From: Sabellastarte sp. h YS-2021
Taxonomy: Eukaryota; Annelida; Polychaeta; Sabellida; Sabellidae
Reading direction: 5' to 3'
Length of the DNA stretch: 64,000 nucleotides
Assembly: GCA_964017235.1 (NCBI GenBank)
Contig: OZ024940.1
Span: forward strand, 27,285,615-27,349,614
Under the pieces are notes generated by a model. That model did not search any database. It was not told the DNA's origin and saw only the letters and a list, made by a program, of their open reading frames with translations. The position numbers and the translations under genes were made by a program. Positions 5,222 to 43,976 of the stretch are shown here, piece after piece (the stretch's first letter is position 1; the number at the start of each line of letters is the position of its first letter).

Positions 5222-5616
5222 CTGGGCCCGTATTCACAAAGATTCTTATTCTTAGAATCATACTTATTCTTAGAATTTTTCTAAGAATGGCTTTTATTCT
5301 TAGAATTTTTCTAAGAATATGAAATTCCTATATGCACAAATCTCTTATTCTTGACACCAGAAATGTATCCAAATACAGAAAGTCACTTCTGGGCCTGTAT
5401 TCACAAAGATTCTTAGAATTTTTCTTTGAATTACACTTAGTCTAACCTATGCACACAATTATTTTTACTTCTATTCTTAGAATTATTCTTAGCTAAGAAT
5501 TGTTTTGTGAATAGGTTTTTATTCTAAGAATAAGAAAATTCTGAGCAAAGAATTTTTCTTAGACTTAAGTGTAATTCTAAGAAAAGTTCTAAGAATCTTT
5601 GTGAATACAGGCCCAG
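5222..5616. mobile_element. Palindromic MITE (TTCTTAGAA type), plus a partial older copy
   Basis: The clean element is 5389-5616 (228 bp). It begins CTGGGCCTGTATTCACAAAG and ends with the exact reverse complement, and its arms are full of the word TTCTTAGAA / TTCTAAGAA. A second copy of the left end (CTGGGCCCGTATTCACAAAG) at 5222 starts a partial copy that stops near 5345. No transposase is encoded. The outer GGGCC-RTATTCACAAA end resembles PIF/Harbinger-type ends (inference). 5617-5999 contains no feature I can name. Confidence 0.8.
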
Positions 5617-5999
5617 TAGTGGTTTGCATAATGCTGATAACAAACAACCAAACAGACAGACAGGCAACACACTCATGTATTCCATACCTCTCTGGCGGAA
5701 TAATACAAGTTGCTACAGTGGCAGTAACTATGTGACAGTCTTGCAATTATCAGATGTCAGGTCATTACTCTTTGTCTCGGAAGATTTCTTGTGTGAGTCT
5801 CTGTTTGAACAAAAAATCACAGGTGGATGCTGTCAAAGACTTGAAACCTTTTCTTATAATATCCACTCTCAAGTTGCGGTGTTGTCCATTAATTATTCAA
5901 TAATTTCCTCTTATTTATACAGTACATACAGCAATATTCGTGACAGATTAAATGTTTCAGTCTTCTACTGGGAAAAAACTAAAAGACTGTGACAGTCAT

Positions 6000-6567
6000 C
6001 TGGGATTGATTTCATGAAATGTCTCAAACTTAGCCCAGTCTCAGGCTGAGCCACTGGCTCAAATCTGAGCCTTTTGGCTCAGCTAAGTCTTTGTCTCAAA
6101 TGAACTTTACAGAAGGGGTCTCAGTTGAGACCAAGCTTATCAAATAACACAGTGGTTTTTGGTGTCATGTGACCTTTTTTTGTAGTACAAATATTCTACT
6201 GATGACATATATGTTTCTTGTTTGACACATAATATCTGGGAGACCTTGTAAACATGTAAAACCACCCATACACTACTTCAGTATTTTGTTTTTTTCATGT
6301 CTACCTTATTTTCTGACATTTCAAATTTTGAAGTGCAGAAAGAATTATGGCGGCCATATTTGAGCCTTTGTTTACAAAACTTAAGCCCACTTTCTACCAG
6401 TCTCAGCATTTGAGCCAGTGGCTCAGCCAAAGCTGAGACTGAGACCTTTTGTGAAATCCATAAAGGCTGAGCCACTGGGCTCAAGAAAAATATTCCAATA
6501 ATTGGAGACAAAAGTCTCAAATTTGAGCCTGAGACCAGGCTAAGACCTTTTGTGAAATCCGCCCCTG
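6000..6567. mobile_element. MITE with GAGACC/CTCAG-word arms and conserved core
   Basis: The right end reads AAAGGTCTTAGCC inward from GGGGCGGATTTCACAAAAGG (reverse complement), and the left end GGGATTGATTTCATGAAATG is its diverged partner. The arms are packed with GAGCC, CTCAG and GAGACC words in both orientations. The interior (about 6141-6420) matches the interiors of the elements at 6621-7175 and 16235-16725, including AGCTTATCAAATAAC, CACAGTGG and TATGGCGGCCAT, although the arms differ. It is non-autonomous, and the 80-codon frame across it is not a gene. Confidence 0.8.
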
Positions 6568-6620
6568 CCTATAAGTATGGCCATTGTTTGATGTTATTCC
6601 TGTGGTTTTCTCTAACGCGT

Positions 6621-7175
6621 GGGGCCGATTTCACAAAGGGACTTAAGTCCAGATTTAGACTTAAATTTAAGACTTTGGTCTTAAATTTTGTCAACAGAAT
6701 GTTAAGTCCATGGTCTTAGACTTAGCGGATTCCACAAAGCAGCTAAGTCCATGAAATTGCTAAGTCAGTGGACTTAACTTTAAGTCTGGGAGGTAGTGGG
6801 CTTAAATTTTGTAGAGGACTTAAATATGGCCGCCATAAACTTTTCTGCACTTCAAAATTTGAAATGGCTGTAAATAAAGTATAATTACACAGAACACCAT
6901 ACTGAAGTAGTCTTTCGGAAGTTATTATGATGTAACAAGGTTTTCTATTTACAAACAGCACTTATCCTTAGATAAAATGCATCAAATGAAGGATATAAAA
7001 GGTCATCTGACACAGAAAACCACTGTGGTTATTTGACAAGCTTGGACTTAGCTAAGTCACCCTTTTGTGAAATCCAGTTAAGTCCCAGACCTAGCTAAGT
7101 CCAAAGTCTTAGATTTAAGTCCCTGACTTAGCCAAAAACTTGTCTAAGTCTAAGTCCCTTGGTGAAATCGGCCCC
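6621..7175. mobile_element. MITE with CTTAAGTC-word arms and conserved core
   Basis: It begins GGGGCCGATTTCACAAAGGG and ends with the inverted copy (CTTGGTGAAATCGGCCCC). The arms are built from GACTTAAG/CTTAAGTC/TTAGACTTA words. The core (about 6800-7060) is the reverse complement of the core at 6141-6420, with the same GGCCGCCATA and AGCTTG...AAATAACCACAGTGG blocks. No coding capacity. Confidence 0.85.
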
Positions 7176-7284
7176 TGGCAAGTAACACTTCCTCCACCTG
7201 TAGCACAGATTCTCCATGATGGGAAACAACGGCTTGATTTCTTCTGAAGCCTTTTAGCTGGAGTCGAAATAGAAAGTTCCATTC

Positions 7285-10309: not shown

Positions 10310-10985
10310 TCCAACTGGCTGATCTGAAATCTCATGATATCTGACTGTAGTGGAACTAAATGTATGAGTTTTCACCTTCATCTAGCTGACTCGTATCTCA
10401 GAAAAAATCTGAATGTATGAGTAAATGCCTCTAACTGGTTGATCCATATCTCGGTCTGATTGGGTAATACTAAGTCAGTTTATGCCTCCATTGTTGATCC
10501 ATATCTCTCACTGCCTGACAGGAGTGTATTAAGTGTATAAAACTTATGCCTCCACCCTGCTGATTCATGCCCCTGGCTGTCTCACTGGTGTGTACTAAAT
10601 GCATGAGTTTATGCCTCCAAAAGTTGATACCAGTCATATCTCTGACTGTCCTACTGGAGTGTACTAAGTGTATGAGTTTATGTCTCTGCATGGTTGACTC
10701 ATACCTCTGACTGTCTGACTAGGGTGTAGTAAGTGTATGAGTTTATGTCTCTACCTGGTTGACTCATACCTTTGACTTGCTGACTAGAGTGTACTAAGTG
10801 TATAAGTTTATGTCTCTACCTGGTTGACTCATACCTTTGACTGTCTGACTGGAGTGTACTAAGTGTATGAGTTTATGTCTCCACCTGGTTGACTCATACC
10901 TTTGAATGTCTGACTGGAGTGTACTAAGTTTAATGTGTTTATGCCTCTACCTGGTTGGCTCGTATTTGAGATTGCCTGGCTGTAT
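10310..10985 (+). repeat. ~70 bp minisatellite reaching into the GPCR 3' end
   Basis: About nine to ten units of roughly 65-72 bp carry CTACCTGGTTGACTCATACC, TTTGACTGTCTGACTGGAG and GTGTACTAAGTGTATGAG. Units between about 10620 and 10945 are most alike; those at 10310-10560 are decayed. The last unit (CTCTACCTGGTTGGCTCGTA at 10946-10965) lies inside the coding region of the minus-strand GPCR and supplies its final codons and stop. Frames within this array are repeats, not genes. Confidence 0.9.
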
Positions 10986-12060
10986 TCCAGCCTTCAGAAG
11001 CTTTATCAGTCCGGACTATATTCTTGTACCGACCATACTTACTGCAGAAGATGTCACAAAAGCAGTCCCTGAACCCACGGCTACAGATACAGTAAATAAC
11101 AAAGTTGACTGCAGAATTGACTGCAAGGAGAGCGTCTGTAAACTCACGAATACCTTTAACCAAGTAACTGGCTTCCACATAGCCATAGTCAAAGATTGTT
11201 GTTATAATAGCATCTGGAGTGACGCAGACTACAAACACCAGGATGACCACGATCAGCATGAAGGTGATCCAGTTCTTGGCGGTCATCTTCTTGCCCTGGA
11301 TGCGTTCTTTCTGGAGGGCACGGATGATGCAGGTATTGAGCACAATGAGAACACAGAGTGGAATCACCGACCTCAACAGGTTGATGATCCAAGAATAGGA
11401 CAGCATCATATATTTAATCCGGAAAAGAGAGGTGAGTCCGATCTCATAGCAGGAGATATTCTCCACTGGGTTGAACCTGTGCACCTTTTTGTATCTGAGT
11501 AGGGATGGTATAGTCACCACACTCATGGAGATGAACGCCACGATGCTGATGATGCGAGCCCGCTCCATCGTGCACATCAGCTTGGCCCGTGTCGGTAAGC
11601 ACACGCATATGAACCTGTCCACGCCCACGCACACAGTCAACCAAGACGACACACAGACAGATGCATTGAAGATGTAGTGAGATATTGGATACATGTATCC
11701 CATCATTGCATTGGCTGCCTCTGGGTTTTTCCTCATTAGTATAGAGACGATGAAATAGAGCAAGTCATTCAGCAGCTTTATGATGTCGGCGACGGCTAGT
11801 GTCCGCAGGTAGGTGTTGGTGCTGGAAGCCATTTTACGGTGTGACAGGACGATTAGCACCAAGGTGTTTCCTGTCAGACCTATGGAACATAGGACTGGAT
11901 AAAAGACCAGTCCAGTCAGAAACTGTGCCTGTCTGTAAAAACTCTCGTACGGGTCAGTGAGATTGGTGGCGACAGATTCAATGCACGAACTGTTGTCAAC
12001 CATGGCATCAGGCGGCACTATGACACGTGACACTGCAGTGGGCGTGTCTGACACCTCCAT
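10939..12060 (-). CDS. Class A neuropeptide-type GPCR, FMRFamide-receptor-like, single exon
   Basis: A 373-residue seven-helix receptor in one uninterrupted exon, expected in the plasma membrane and coupled to a G protein. The first ~46 residues are extracellular with N-glycosylation sites at N23 and N33. Helices lie at about 49-72 (G64-N65), 84-107 (LAVAD with D92), 122-150 (DRF at 148-150), 168-188, 219-247 (P234), 264-290 (TPD at 281-283) and 304-325. The end of helix 7 reads NSAVNFVIY (315-323), replacing NPxxY, a form common in FMRFamide/peptide receptors. N201 and C204 lie in extracellular loop 2, and C333, C335 and C339 after helix 8 are palmitoylation candidates. I see no Cys at the outer end of helix 3, so the usual loop-2 disulfide may be absent. 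Start: first Met, with another Met at 20. The last ~8-14 residues and the stop come from the adjacent minisatellite. The ligand cannot be read from the sequence; other amidated peptides are possible. Confidence 0.88.
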   Translation of the reverse strand: MEVSDTPTAVSRVIVPPDAMVDNSSCIESVATNLTDPYESFYRQAQFLTGLVFYPVLCSIGLTGNTLVLIVLSHRKMASSTNTYLRTLAVADIIKLLNDLLYFIVSILMRKNPEAANAMMGYMYPISHYIFNASVCVSSWLTVCVGVDRFICVCLPTRAKLMCTMERARIISIVAFISMSVVTIPSLLRYKKVHRFNPVENISCYEIGLTSLFRIKYMMLSYSWIINLLRSVIPLCVLIVLNTCIIRALQKERIQGKKMTAKNWITFMLIVVILVFVVCVTPDAIITTIFDYGYVEASYLVKGIREFTDALLAVNSAVNFVIYCICSRGFRDCFCDIFCSKYGRYKNIVRTDKASEGWNTARQSQIRANQVEA

Positions 12061-16003: not shown

Positions 16004-16234
16004 AAGGCCATGGTGGCAGAGTGGTAACACTCTCCCCTCACACCTCTGAGGCTGGGATTCGGTTCCCGGCAAGGCCTCAAGTGGGAAAGCTGGTAGTTGC
16101 TTGCCGTTGGTCGGCAGTTTACAGTACAGAACCTTGACCAACTGTATGTACTGGTTTCCTCTGCCCTTCCAACTACCCGTCATGATATGACCTGTACAGT
16201 GTTGAAAGTGACGTAAAACCCCCAAATAAATAAA
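16004..16234 (+). mobile_element. SINE-A, full length
   Basis: Plus-strand copy with the complete head (ATGGTGGCAGAGTGGTAACA; B box GGGATTCGGTTCCCGG), the body and a CCCAAATAAATAAAG tail. Its tail end abuts the inverted-repeat element that follows. The 90-codon minus-strand frame across it is a shadow. Confidence 0.9.
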
Positions 16235-17072
16235 GACTTTGGTCTTAGCTAGGTCTGGCACTTAAATTGATTTCACAAAGGGGTGACTTAGCTAAGTCCA
16301 AGCTTATCAAATAACCACAGTGGTTTTCTGTGTCATATGACCTTTTATATCCTTCATTTGATGCATTTTTTCTAAGGATAAGTGCTGTTTGCAAATAGAA
16401 AACCTTGTTACATCATATAAAATTCCCAAAGACTACTTCAGTAAGGTATTCTGTATAATTATACTTTATTTACAGCCATTTCAAATTCTGAAGTGGAGAA
16501 AAGTTTATGGCGGCCATGTTTAAGTCCTCTTTACAAAATTTAAGCCCACTACCAACCAGTCTTAAAGATGAGTCCACTGACTTAGCAATTTCAATTACTT
16601 AGCTGCTTTGTGAAATCCGCTAAGTCTAAGACCGCAGACTTAACATTCTGTTGACAAAATTTAAGCCCAAAGTCTTAAATTTAAGTCTAAATCTGGACTT
16701 AAGTCCCTTTGTGAAATCGGCCCCAGGTTTCACAAAGCAGCAAACTCTAAGCTTTTTTTCTAAGTCTAGGGTTCAAAGTTAAGTCCACCTGCGAGTGGGA
16801 TTTAGACAAGACAAGATTTGCCATTCCAAAACAGCGCTTATCATAAGATAAGATATGTCAAGTGAAGGATATATGTCACCAGTAATTTATTTTGAATAGA
16901 AATGAAAGGTCACATGACACAGAAAAACCACTGTGGTTATTTCACGAGCTTGGACTGAGCTAAGTCACCCTTTGTGAAATCCATTTAAGTCCCAGACCTA
17001 GCTAAGACCAAAGTCTTAGATTTAAGTCCAAAAAATAAGCTAAGTGTAAGACCCTTTGTGGAACCAGCCCAT
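16235..17072. mobile_element. Two joined CTTAAGTC-word MITEs
   Basis: 16235-16725 is an inverted copy of the 6621-7175 element. It has the same core (AGCTTATCAAATAACCACAG, TATGGCGGCCATGTTTAAG) and ends GTCCCTTTGTGAAATCGGCC. Its left end is degraded but keeps TGATTTCACAAAGGGG. 16721-17072 is a shorter relative starting GGTTTCACAAAGCAGC and ending ACCCTTTGTGGAACCAGCCC, with its own copy of ATTTCACGAGCTTGGACT. The two share the junction sequence GGCCCCAGG. No coding capacity. 17073-17401 has no feature I can name. Confidence 0.75.
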
Positions 17073-23551: not shown

Positions 23552-24631
23552 AGATTCTTTCCTGTGTCTTCAGATGGCAATGGGGCATAATCAGATTACT
23601 GGTATGTTTGTATACATAGCCTACTGAAATCAGTTTATATCTCTGTATCCAAATAAAAATTGTTGCATGCAAATCATTTCATATGGCTTATCCAATGAAC
23701 ACAAGTTACTGCCAATATATGAAACGAGTGGAATGAATCAGAACGGGAACCCTGTTGTGACACAGTGATAGCCATATTGTTAATCAGTGACTTAATAAAC
23801 TTATTAATTAGAACATCCTATGGGCTTAGAGGGGAGGACTCATGTAAAGTGGCCCTCTAAAGGTGGCCTGAAATAGGCTGGTTGTCACTGGGCCACTGTA
23901 TCTGTATCTCCTTTCAGGAACAGTTGCCCAACAGAAATCACTGGCCTAAAGTATGAGCTTCAGTAACCAAGTGTATTGTGTAGCTGAATTTGCTTAGAAT
24001 AAGATATGAACTTTTAAGTGTTTGAGCTTTAAAAACCCAGAGGGCTATAAAAGTAAATTATATGAAAGTAAAAGATATGGTTAACCAAAGTGTAAATCAA
24101 AGAAATGGTTATAGTATAAGAAAAAAGCATAAAAGTTTCTAAATAAAAGATGTAAACATGTAATTGAATAATCGCAAATGGCCTATTTTGTAAAGTAAGT
24201 TGCTAACACGATGAAATCGTAATGTTAAATAAAATGAAGTTAGAACACCTGTTTCGCCTGATGATAACGTGTCACTGAAACAAATCTGAATAGGCTACTC
24301 GGAAAGAACAACATTATGTTCTAAAAGGATGACAGTAAAATGTCGTAACCAAATGTAAATGAAATGTTGGTGTGAAACAAATGTAAACAATGAATTGAAG
24401 TAATGTTCAGTCTATAGTTCAGTGTTAACAAATGGGAAAAAAAACATTGTAACTGAATATGTTAAGGCCAATGTCCAATCAAGACAAAGAACATGGTACC
24501 TCAAACAATGTAAATCAAAGTAATTTATATCTTCTTTCTACTGAACATACTGTATATGCTTATTTGAAAACTGAAAATAGCGAGCCCAGACTGCCATCTG
24601 TGGGTTATAGGTTCTGTCCTGATATAACTTC
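23552..24631. other. Unassigned intergenic DNA
   Basis: AT-rich, with no gene seen. The 74-codon frame at 24459-24683 runs into the next MITE and is not supported. Confidence 0.4.
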
Positions 24632-25328
24632 AGGGCCGGTATTCATAAAACCTGCTGAGACCAAATTTTGTCTCAAGTCTTAAGTTTTGGTCTCAAGTCT
24701 GAGACCACTTTTGGTCTCAGACTTGTTAGCTATTCATAAAACAGTTGAGACCAAATTTAGTCTCAGATTTGGTCTCAAACTTAAGACTGGTACATAGTTG
24801 TCTTAAATATTTTGTTCAAAGTCTCAAGCATTATTTCATCTTAACTGAGATTCATATTTTTATTTCTTATGGCTTAATGTAAAGTAGAAATAATTTACAA
24901 CATATATACTACTTGGCCTAAATTTTTGTAACAACTGATAGGACAAATTTTTGCTTCAAGAGTACCTTACTTTGAGACAATTTTCAACAGAGTTTTCTGA
25001 CTGCATAGCAACAAAGAAGTGGATCATGTGACATGAAAAATAAAAAACAGTTGACACAATTTTCTATTTATTTTTTATTTAAATGGACAGTATAATTTTT
25101 GTTGAGAATTAAAACACAAAAAGTATTGATCTTTTAAAAAAATGTTGGATATATTTGCAAGTTTATGGTTTGTTTACATTGGAAAGACTTGAGACTGGTC
25201 TCAGCTTGGTCTCAGCTGAGAACCTGTTTGTGAATACAAAGTTGAGACTTGGTCTCAGCTGAGACCAAATCTCAAGCTGAGACTATTTTTTGTCTCAGAC
25301 TTAAGATCTCTTTATGAATACGGCCCCA
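24632..25328. mobile_element. MITE with GAGACC/TCTCAAG-word arms
   Basis: It begins AGGGCCGGTATTCATAAAAC and ends with the inverted GATCTCTTTATGAATACGGC followed by CCC. The arms repeat TGAGACCAAATTTTGTCTCA-type words in both orientations. The interior is AT-rich and includes ATCATGTGACATGAAAAA, a possible trace of the core seen at 6141-6420. A partial relative lies at 42765. No coding capacity. Confidence 0.85.
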
Positions 25329-27446
25329 GGAGCTACCTTTAAGTTTCCACATGTTTATGTGTTCACTTGCATTTGAGGTTTTGTGAAAGTAAAATGATAA
25401 AAATTACAATAATTTCAACCAAACAAAGAGTCAGATGTCATGTTTAACTAACATCTTGACATTTGAGGGTCTGTCATCAGATGAAGCCACACAGTCTAAT
25501 GGCCTTCCATGTCGCTGAAGTGACAGTCACTTTAAAAAAATACTCAAAAAATGGTTGAGGTTTGTGGGGATTTAATGGCTTTCAAAATCTAGTGATGTAA
25601 GCCAGTTTTTTTCTTAAAACTCTCATATATTTTTTTTTCATCCAGGTATTCCAGGATAACAAAATGATACTTGAGTGTGTGGCCTAGCATTTAATCAGTT
25701 ACCTCAAACTTTGATAAAATATCTTCTATGCGTCAAGATTTTTTGTTTGTAAATTTATTTTTTTGTTGGTAAATATTTTTTTGTGCTCAAATAACACACA
25801 GATCTGCTGCGGGTTACTCCAGAGAGCTTGAATAAAGTTTAAATTAATTTTTGCAATTCAATTTAAGACAATACAATAAAATACTGATGAAATCTGTAGT
25901 TTCTATACAAATCAACTACCTGTGAACTGTCAAACCTTGGCAATTCAGTGATCTGTCTCAATGGGTTCCTAATTTATTTGATTTGTTTTTCAGGCAAATA
26001 AAATTACTGATGTGTATAACATTAATTGATTGTTTGTGATTTTCCAAAAGAGTTTAAAAAACCTTCAGATAAATTGATAGTTGGTTGAACAAAATAGCCG
26101 ATTGGATATATTGGTAAACCTTTCATACAGATGGATAAATCATTCAAACCTAATGTGTAACCTCGTGAGTAAGTTCAAGATTACTCAAACAAATCCTTAG
26201 TAAATCATTTGAAAGATTAGTTCATTTCCTGGCTATCAAAAACTAACCATAAACTCTAAACTTCCTATCTAAACTTGCATCTTTAAAAATATGAAGTAGT
26301 TTGTTTCTGCAAATTTGGCAAATGTGTAATGACATTTATTTTATAAAAACCTCGCCAAATGAAAACATAAAAATAGAATAAATACACCTTGACTGTATGA
26401 AAATCTGATTTAAAGTGCCAAACAAGGTGATTATGTCATTTGTGTTGGGAAGTTAAATTAACATTTTTTACAATTCTCACCCTGAAAGAAAATTAAAACT
26501 GTAATATTATTACAAGGTGATTTCAGCTGTACAAAAGTTATAAAATAGATTTATGATATTCTTTCTACAAACTCACATTCTAGAAAATAATTTTGGTATT
26601 TTTGTTGTATTTTTTCCTGTTATATTACTACTTTCTTGTTAAATTTTGAAAAAATACACTCGTAAATGAAAAAAAAAATGGAAAAAGAAAACAAAGAGTT
26701 CCATCCACAACCTACCCTCTTGTGTTTTATGAAACTATCCAATTTGAATTCTTTTTAAATTATTATTTCCATGAAACTAGATACTTAATATTCCACCCGA
26801 TGTAACTGTATAGTTTTAACACATATTAACGCGTTATTTATTCATGTGTGTTATCCAATCTGCGGGTGATTCTGATATTGTCTTATCCGAATGAATCCAC
26901 ACACATGCGTGTACTCAGCCTCCTGCCACCCTCTCGTGACACCAGTGATCTGACCACTCGTCCTGGGAGTTGTGTGTGCACACACTGAGCTCTGTGTGCC
27001 CCCCCTCCCTCCCCCCTGTCAGTACAGGTTCCACCACTATCTGTCAGCCAGCCACAAGACCCTGCCTTCTCCAGGTTTGCATTGGCTGTGTAATGAATTC
27101 TGCCAGTGGGTGGGTGTGTTACAGGAGAGGATGTATATATATATATGACAAATGCAAATAATGAATAAAGATGACAATTACAATACCATTGGGTAGCAGA
27201 AGTATTGTACTGTTCATCATCTGTGAGTGGTATATTTATTTCATGTACATTGTGTAAGTCTAATGAGGGATGTTTTACTTCTGTTATCCACCATTTTTTT
27301 TTGTGTGTGATTAAACAGTAAAATAAATCCATATTTAAAGAAAGAATGCAAAATACATGTATGTAGAGGGTCACAGTAAACATCGGAAAAAAAAGTGAAT
27401 GGTTCATCTTAACTGTATACTTGGTGTCACATGGGGGGGGGGGGGG
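25329..27446. other. Unassigned intergenic DNA
   Basis: Mostly AT-rich. 26880-27120 is a GC-richer island with C-rich CCCCCCTCCCTCCCCCC on the plus strand; it could be a promoter or UTR, but I see no gene beside it. The 174-codon minus-strand frame (26883-27407) has no recognisable domain, biased composition and a Gly/Arg-rich end produced by the C-rich strand. I do not call it. Confidence 0.4.
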
Positions 27447-39267: not shown

Positions 39268-39396
39268 TTTTCCAATGATGTAGACATCATATCACCTCTG
39301 TAGGTTGCGTAGCTTGAGAAACATTGACTAAAAATCGGTACCTGTGGATGAATTTGTAATGCCAATCATTCATAATAAATAGCATCAGGGAATAAT

Positions 39397-40062
39397 ACCC
39401 CTGTTCCACCAAAGGATTAAAGTCTTGGACCCTTAATCCTTGAGAGTCGGTGAAAAAGCATGAATAATGGGCAGGGAAATGTAATCTTGATCCAGGTGTG
39501 GGATCAATCCCAGATCATCCCCAGGAAGTCTCAGACCTCCTCAGACAACTAGCGATTGTTCCCTGACTAAGAGCCTATTAAGTCACAATTGTGATACGAT
39601 TCAACACTGATCCTGTCTGGGACATACCCACTGGGTCTCAGACTGGTCTGAGACTTCCTCAGACTTCCTGGGATTAATAACAGATTCCCACACACAGCAA
39701 TGGCCGATTTTTGTTATTTCTTTTGCATGGGGGGTCGGGGATAGATCTGGGATTAAGTCCAGATCTCCTGGGACTAAAACTAAACTGACCTGGCATTAAG
39801 AGTCCCAGGAAGTTTCAGACAACCTAAGATTGTGTACATTTCAGCCTGAAGAGGTCTCAGGAAGTCTGGGACTGGAATGTTGGTGGGTAGGAGCGCATGT
39901 GGATCGGTTACAGTCGTGGCAAATATCAAACATGTTTGACTTTTAAACCGATTACAACAGATCCAAACAGACTCGAGCAGACTGTCTGGAACTCTAAATT
40001 TTTAGAAACAGATTCCCTAAATACCTTAATCGGGAGCCTTAGTCATGTGGTGGAACAGGGGC
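39397..40062 (+). mobile_element. GTTCCACCAAAGG-ended TIR element, copy 1
   Basis: TACCCCTGTTCCACCAAAGG at the left is answered by CATGTGGTGGAACAGGGGCA at the right. The interior is dense with words GGGACT, AGACTTCC, CCTCAGAC and AGTCCCAGG in both orientations, and has CAAACATGTTTG. A second, GC-richer copy in the same orientation lies at 43261-43976, and both share the terminal block TTAATCGGGAGCCTTAGTCA. The 86-codon frame is not a gene. Confidence 0.85.
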
Positions 40063-42930: not shown

Positions 42931-43260
42931 TTTTAATGGCCAGTATTTATTTTGCCAATAATTCACAACATAATTTAAAACATCTAATAGAATGAAAAGA
43001 AATGAGAAAATCTGCCAATTGTCTTTTTTATTTGTATGTAATGTGATCGTCTATGTTCTACTTGCCCAGAAAATAATTTGTCTACTGCCTGGCGCCATAA
43101 CTTGGAACACCTTGGACACAAAATCCTTATTTTCGTTTGTTTTAAGTGAAGTTCCGTGGGTTTCTTTTTATTAAAAGATGTATTGACACAAGCACAAGTT
43201 ATAAAAATACTTTACTGACATAAAGTACACAAAATAAACTGTTTAGAATCGTTTTTTAAT

Positions 43261-43976
43261 GCCCTTGTTCCACCAAAGGATTAAGCCCCGACTCTGTCGG
43301 CGACCCTTAATCGTGGACAGTCGGTGAAAAAAAAAACAAAAATGGGCGGGAAAACTGGATCGGTTTCAAAGTCTGGGATTAAGTACAGATCGTCCTCAGG
43401 AAGCCTCAGGACGCCTCAGGCGGCCCCAGACAGTCCCTAACTGGTCTGGGACTAAGAACAGACTAAGCCATTTGTCTGGTCGGTTTGAACCACGATCCTG
43501 TCGTACACAAACCGACTGGGTCCCAGGACACCTCGGGCCTCCTGGGACTAAGCCCCGACTAACCCAGGATTAAGTCCCGACCCCACAAGGTGTCCTGAGG
43601 CCTCCCCAGGCGTCCCCAGACCGAGATAGCCGATTTTTGTTTTGCAATGGGACTAAGGGTTGCAGGAGGCCTGGGACTAAGGAATAGAGGGTCTGGGACT
43701 AAGGGTCGGCGACTAAGGGTCGCAGGCGGCCTGGGACAGCATAGGACTGTGTAAATTTGGTCTGAGGAGGCCTGAGGAAGCCTGGGACTGGACATTTTGT
43801 TTATGGCGGGAAAAAATAATCGGTTGGGGTTGGGAGAAATATCAAACATGTTTGATATTTCTCACGGCCCCAACCGACCACAACCGACCCTTACAGGATG
43901 CCTGGGACTAAGCAAATTTTTCAAACCGACCCTCAAAAACCCTTAATCGGGAGCCTTAGTCATGTGGTGGAACACC
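43261..43976 (+). mobile_element. GTTCCACCAAAGG-ended TIR element, copy 2 (GC-rich)
   Basis: CCTTGTTCCACCAAAGGATT at the left pairs with CATGTGGTGGAACACCC at the right. The interior is unusually GC-rich for this window and made of repeated words GGCCTGGGACTAAG, CCTCAGG, GGCGACCCTTAAT and GGTCTGGGACTAAGG, plus a near-perfect hairpin around AATATCAAACATGTTTGATA (about 43831-43862). Overall layout equals copy 1. The 96-codon minus frame is repeat translation. Confidence 0.85.

Follow-up and report, generated by a model that had tools for sequence, protein, structure and literature searches.

The inverted-repeat elements of the sabellid Sabellastarte sp. h YS-2021 are built of cores and word-coded arms that have separate histories inside one genome, and this is the unusual part of a well-supported case of modular MITEs. 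Our main reading, to which we assign a probability of roughly 0.63, is that the elements are non-autonomous NuwaI-type DNA transposons (MITEs) of the PHIS/Harbinger superfamily, a known group, that a core of about 300 bp was transferred between E-armed and B-armed elements, and that the words repeated in the arms are putative binding sites of Myb-like proteins.

The host genome comprises 1.79 Gb in 647 contigs, and the features of the window (the whole stretch of 64,000 nucleotides that was analyzed) are collected in Table 1. Families A and B lie side by side in the window, and family E is located elsewhere in the genome. All three are real repeated, non-coding MITEs with GGG-starting inverted ends beside CWG. 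The A and B elements are 555-568 bp long, and no ORF of 120 aa or more overlaps positions 6000-7175. First-look searches returned 3782 (A), 3583 (B) and 4405 (E) candidates on many contigs, which are not copy numbers, and the copies analyzed are the best scorers per query (best 40 scored), hence a non-random sample. Consensus sequences were built from full copies, namely 26 of 36 A, 30 of 32 B and 21 of 22 E elements. Genomic A copies were 81-89% identical to the A element of the window (search matches), and genomic B copies were 93-95% identical to B, apart from one neighbor at 83%, the A element itself (69%) and three arm pieces of 72-80 bases (73-91%).

When A was compared with the reverse complement of B, the two aligned over nearly their full length with 69% identity (E 1e-41), and their common interior reads AAGCTT.TCAAATAA..CACAGTGG and TATGGCGGCCAT. 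The conserved interior that an earlier note had described for A and B is thus borne out. The third element of that note (16235-16725) is a truncated copy of B type, and 5222-5616 belongs to another family, G, with ends of the same type and other words (Table 1). G elements occur in short head-to-tail runs with ends shared or missing, in the window and at G000:C19:64767063-64768282. In the DNA examined, where most loci had been fetched for A, B or E and the sample is biased to that extent, 69 elements had paired ends: 24 B, 22 A, 16 E, 1 G and 6 others. Two of the latter are damaged A- or E-like copies, and among the remainder are at least three additional families whose words differ, at 24631-25329 of the window (to which L059 is probably related), at L048:2077-2735 and at L068:446-1286. 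Apart from the repeats, an intact-looking 373-aa ORF at 10939-12060 of the window (minus strand) belongs to the rhodopsin-like receptor family (PF00001, E 4e-26).

Table 1. Positions of elements and their parts in the window.
Feature	Position	Strand	Remarks
Element A, MITE with CTCA/TGAG words	6000-6567	+	CTG at 6000-6002 and 6565-6567; consensus from 26 copies
A left arm	6003-6133	+	Terminal motif, then word array and inner words, with an internal terminal-motif copy between them (about 6102-6117)
A core	6134-6358	+	Homologous to B and E cores (alignment)
A right arm	6359-6564	+	Words on both sides of an internal end motif (TTTTGTGAAATCC), then terminal motif
Element B, MITE with CTTA/TAAG words (GACTTA)	6621-7175	-	GTG at 6619-6621, CTG at 7175-7177; consensus from 30 copies
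B core	6826-7045	-	Near-identical to E core
B-type copy	16233-16724	+	Lacks about the first 65 bases; 93% identical to B
Second partial B-like piece	16803-17066	-	Opposite orientation to 16233-16724; approximate edges
G family, GGGCCCGTATTCACAAAG ends, ATTCTTAGAAT words	5222-5616	+	Left ends at 5224 and 5391; single right end (to 5614)
H family, CAGGGCCGGTATTCATAAAA end, GAGACC/GGTCTCA words	24631-25329	+	Internal TATTCATAAAACAG motif; own core

CWG stands at both edges in 59 of 75 copies of A, B and E. At one locus (L037), a B element interrupts a B2 element, a member of an older B subfamily, exactly at CTG, and the uninterrupted counterpart was found at L049 as one empty site. The terminal inverted repeats all begin with GGG: GGGGCGGATTTCA in A, GGGGCCGATTTCA in B and GGGCCCGTATTCA in E. 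The flanking W letters are equal in 37 of the 59 clean pairs, against 28 expected if they were independent (p 0.01), which is a genuine yet weak duplication signal, below a faithful 3-bp duplication. The W letters of the other 22 pairs are unequal, 18 in the family's own inverted-end sense and 4 in the opposite sense (A, B and E copies, e.g. L009-L038), a ratio that is partly circular because the family sense was derived from the same copies. In such cases the element might carry its old terminal letters into the new site. At L029:912-2057, A and B elements abut at one CWG, and the target site of one element is used by the next.

Together, CWG and GGG form the signature of NuwaI. This group belongs to the PHIS superfamily, which also includes PIF/Harbinger, and according to the sections cited it has a separate Myb/SANT ORF (Han et al. 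2015, PMC4482050). The site and the ends of the elements match this published signature, the hosts are animals in both cases, and we consider the elements to be probably of NuwaI type. NuwaI families as described in the cited part of that paper are autonomous, their TIRs are short (12-61 bp) and word arrays in subterminal position are not mentioned, whereas only gene-less elements were seen here and their W letter shows a weak duplication signal. In being short and gene-less they resemble the Tourist-like MITEs of PIF/Harbinger, such as mPing with Ping/Pong, on which a Myb-like ORF1 protein and a transposase act in trans; these differ in a 3-bp TSD that is usually TAA, and the cited parts of the sources do not describe family-specific word arrays or core exchange (PMC2836001, PMC4055405).

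Read from either end towards the middle, the elements begin with the terminal motif and about 100 bp of words, after which the terminal motif recurs, followed by further words and the core. The internal copy is spelt as in its own family, TATTCAC in E and ATTTCAC in B. Considering CTYA/TRAG words, the arms hold 27 (A), 26 (E) and 23 (B), more than any of 2000 letter shuffles (means 5.7-6.3, maxima 15-17), and each core holds 1-3, not above its own shuffles. Counted as CTCA/TGAG against CTTA/TAAG, the consensus arms have 21 vs 6 in A, 0 vs 23 in B and 4 vs 22 in E. The left-arm spacing of words is 6,11,7,11,8,12,6,11,25,6 in A and 6,11,6,12,8,12,6,10,26,6 in E, and the arms of A and B can be aligned at 65-75% with the words in register. 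The grid of words is thus conserved across A, E and B, and the words are family-specific.

To describe how the words differ, we compared the 21 sites at which all three consensuses carry a CT.A or T.AG frame. The middle letter differs at 17 (A-B), 14 (A-E) and 5 (E-B) of these sites, and the letter preceding the frame is changed at 15, 10 and 11, respectively. Background transitions in the arms amount to 10.5-11.4%; the middle-letter changes lie above this level, and therefore the word changed in concert. The contrast in words that the earlier note had drawn between the arms holds in this concerted change, but the arms are not unrelated: one or two letters are altered on a conserved grid. RNA editing or deamination as the cause of the CTCA/CTTA difference was dropped on inspection of the alignment, where the changes occur on both strands in word context and other TC sites of the core are unchanged.

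The comparison of E with B is the most informative. The pair differ at 33 of 115 positions in the left arm (29%), at 11 of 268 in the core (4.1%) and at 55 of 175 in the right arm (31%). A two-break model placed the breaks at alignment columns 108 and 422, with 96.1% identity inside and 68.5% outside, and its log-likelihood was -220.3 compared with -260.8 for one rate (gain 40.6); the breaks are sharp. Among non-word (spacer) letters, 34 of 80 differ in the arms (42%) and 11 of 279 in the core (Fisher 1.7e-16). Since the spacer letters have diverged too, the whole arms of E and B differ in ancestry, and word-only rewriting does not describe them. Similar values were obtained for E and the B2 subfamily (11 copies), with 14 of 287 differences in the core (4.9%) and 36% and 31% in the arms. 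The arms of B and B2 themselves are 8.8% and 1.1% apart and their cores 3.1%, and A is about equidistant from E and B (arms 25-35%, core 21%).

Tree distances from 80 copies agree with this pattern. For the arms they were 0.644 (A-E), 0.649 (A-B) and 0.628 (E-B), and for the core 0.398, 0.422 and 0.099, respectively. In the IQ-TREE core tree (73 rows, 12 A copies included), each family formed its own group, and a clade of B and B2 without E had a p-AU of 0.51. Because this clade is not rejected, the core transfer would be visible in branch lengths and not in branching order. Accordingly, of the discordance between core and arm trees that the earlier note had looked for, the branch lengths show it, but the branching order is the same.

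The same figures bear on an account without any exchange, in which the core is slow or conserved and the arms are fast. Between copies, left arms vary about twice as much as the core in E (0.027 vs 0.014) and in B (0.060 vs 0.031), which may reflect a somewhat higher rate in the arms or a mixture of subfamilies. In A, however, the core varies more (0.058) than the arms (0.039 and 0.048). Moreover, A and E differ by 21% in the core and 27-31% in the arms, against 4% and 29-31% for E and B, and one rate ratio cannot yield both. Considering also that the edges of the shared core are abrupt, this account is disfavored and appears improbable.

Family F provides a second case. Its arms match those of A (81% over 133 bases and 75% over 126 bases), but its core has no match better than E 0.07. 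One copy of F was read (L047:684-1382), and over the 399 bases searched the 40 copies that were scored proved identical or 99% alike. Given the common core of E and B and the A-like arms of F around an unrelated core, arms and cores are separable modules. They assort separately and have different histories, which bears out the separate arm and core histories that the earlier note had suggested. The arm families A, E, B and F diverged long ago as separate lineages, whereas E and B have a core in common at about 96%. At G000:C3:65401654-65426162, six F copies in one orientation about 4.8 kb apart form a tandem array of a 4.8-kb unit, and one period of it (L076) contains no ORF above 132 aa.

It is conceivable that the shared core was formerly an inserted mobile unit with its own end motifs, which landed in two arm-bearing MITEs and gave rise to E and B. 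The end motif recurs inside each arm, and the left break (column 108) is placed within the internal copy on the left. However, the internal motif has the spelling of its host family, and on the right the break is set about 55 columns inside of the internal motif; the shared tract is therefore not bounded by ends of its own. In addition, A, whose arms are equally distant, has the same core in the same frame. We therefore consider an inserted unit very unlikely.

The simplest account of E and B would be the transfer of a single core tract. A stretch of about 300 bp that begins at the inner end of the left arm and reaches into the inner part of the right arm would have passed between an E-armed and a B-armed element through ectopic gene conversion or template switching in gap repair, in which both arms stay in place, and the chimeric element would have been amplified afterwards. 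In a search with the E arms, 19 places with both arms 238-307 bases apart were found among the best scorers listed. A family with E or B arms around a different core, as expected of a donor, was not encountered in the material analyzed, which for the E arms comprised these best scorers, and core-less arm segments in the DNA fetched appeared only as short or cut-off matches. An ectopic template in gap repair has been proposed as a source of chimeras among P-MITEs, and the Anopheles element AgaP2-P12MITE was likewise assembled from two subfamilies; as far as the cited passages go, its two ends come from different subfamilies, whereas both ends agree in E and B and the core is the shared part (PMC1562414). 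In Galileo and other Foldback-like elements, inverted repeats are restructured with arm-to-arm transfer and template switching has been invoked, but Galileo belongs to the P superfamily and, in the sections cited, has 7-8 bp duplications and hundreds of bp of TIR (PMC4168063). Among the titles and abstracts listed in searches of open-access papers, we found no description of word switching or core exchange in NuwaI-type MITEs.

Alternatively, the words could have been homogenized inside each element, with hairpin pairing or short-tract conversion copying a variant from site to site into both arms. The words are uniform family-wide, and where the left arm and the reversed right arm can be aligned, their identity is high in A (0.78) and E (0.86), compared with 0.67 in B and 0.69-0.74 for the same arm between families. 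Nevertheless, E-B spacers are as diverged as the words or more (34/80 vs 43/161), and some A sites keep CTTA as B and E do (columns 31, 411 and 571). The left and right spacing patterns are also kept separate in the three families: same-side arms of A, E and B align with 0-2 gap columns, but left against reversed right arm within an element needs 38 (A), 44 (E) and 10 (B). According to these side-specific patterns, copying of one whole arm onto the other is unlikely to have taken place after the families separated. When all pairs of the predicted fold were considered, of which 75-96 of 170-193 are left-right pairs, compensating double changes showed no excess in copies of any family (observed vs expected, A 7 vs 13.8, E 3 vs 4.1, B 4 vs 3.0). 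The hairpin copying by which the earlier note had a word spread through existing arms is thus not supported, and homogenization as the explanation seems unlikely. Short conversions of single words may have occurred; the high arm identity within A and E elements fits such short-tract conversion or one protein reading both ends.

In the reading with core transfer, the words would be bound by the Myb-like protein of the respective autonomous partner, and in both arms they would track the preference of that protein, being uniform within a family and different between families. By analogy, the words are probably binding sites of the Myb-like protein of a partner transposon, because the only such protein tested, that of zebrafish Harbinger3_DR, binds a 9-bp subterminal motif according to the part of the source cited (PMC9710019).

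The PHIS-type transposase domain PF13359 gave 10138 candidates in the genome, of which 150 matches were scored, all over the Pfam cut-off. Eight of the 150 loci listed were read (L070-L075, L096 and L097), and in none of them does an inverted pair of A-, B- or E-type ends enclose the ORF. L075, L096 and L097 contain weak matches to the end motifs (2-4 mismatches), with no plus-strand end to the left combined with a minus-strand end to the right of the ORF. As judged from their proteins, the eight loci appear to be ISL2EU-like or Harbinger-like genes. The 442-aa type at L071 was rejected as a partner since it has other ends. It is a separate high-copy Harbinger-like element (L071:1185-1629) with ends TAATGCCCCTGTTCCACC and word arms of GACTAAG and CCGACT, and positions 43257-43647 and 39393-39641 of the window resemble its end region. 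A protein search for transposase pieces in the fetched DNA and the window gave nothing useful beyond the loci themselves. Zator transposons have 3-bp TSDs, and the PF07592 profile used with this idea had 0 matches here and 0 in control genomes too, hence it is uninformative on absence.

We tentatively suggest that the arms could act as an address code, in which about twenty repeats of a single word, set on a fixed grid, are recognized by the Myb-like protein of a given transposon lineage. With drift of that protein, such a code might shift letter by letter at every site, and a core transfer might change the address of a MITE and move gene-less elements between transposase networks. If the separate histories of arms and cores are right, the name of a MITE family would no longer stand for one history, ends and core would need separate classification, and age estimates from whole elements would mislead. 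Families A, E, B and F would offer a naturally arisen series of binding-site arrays that have diverged on one constant grid. Such a series would be useful for seeing how the DNA-binding partner of a transposon changes in step with its sites, which is difficult to study otherwise.
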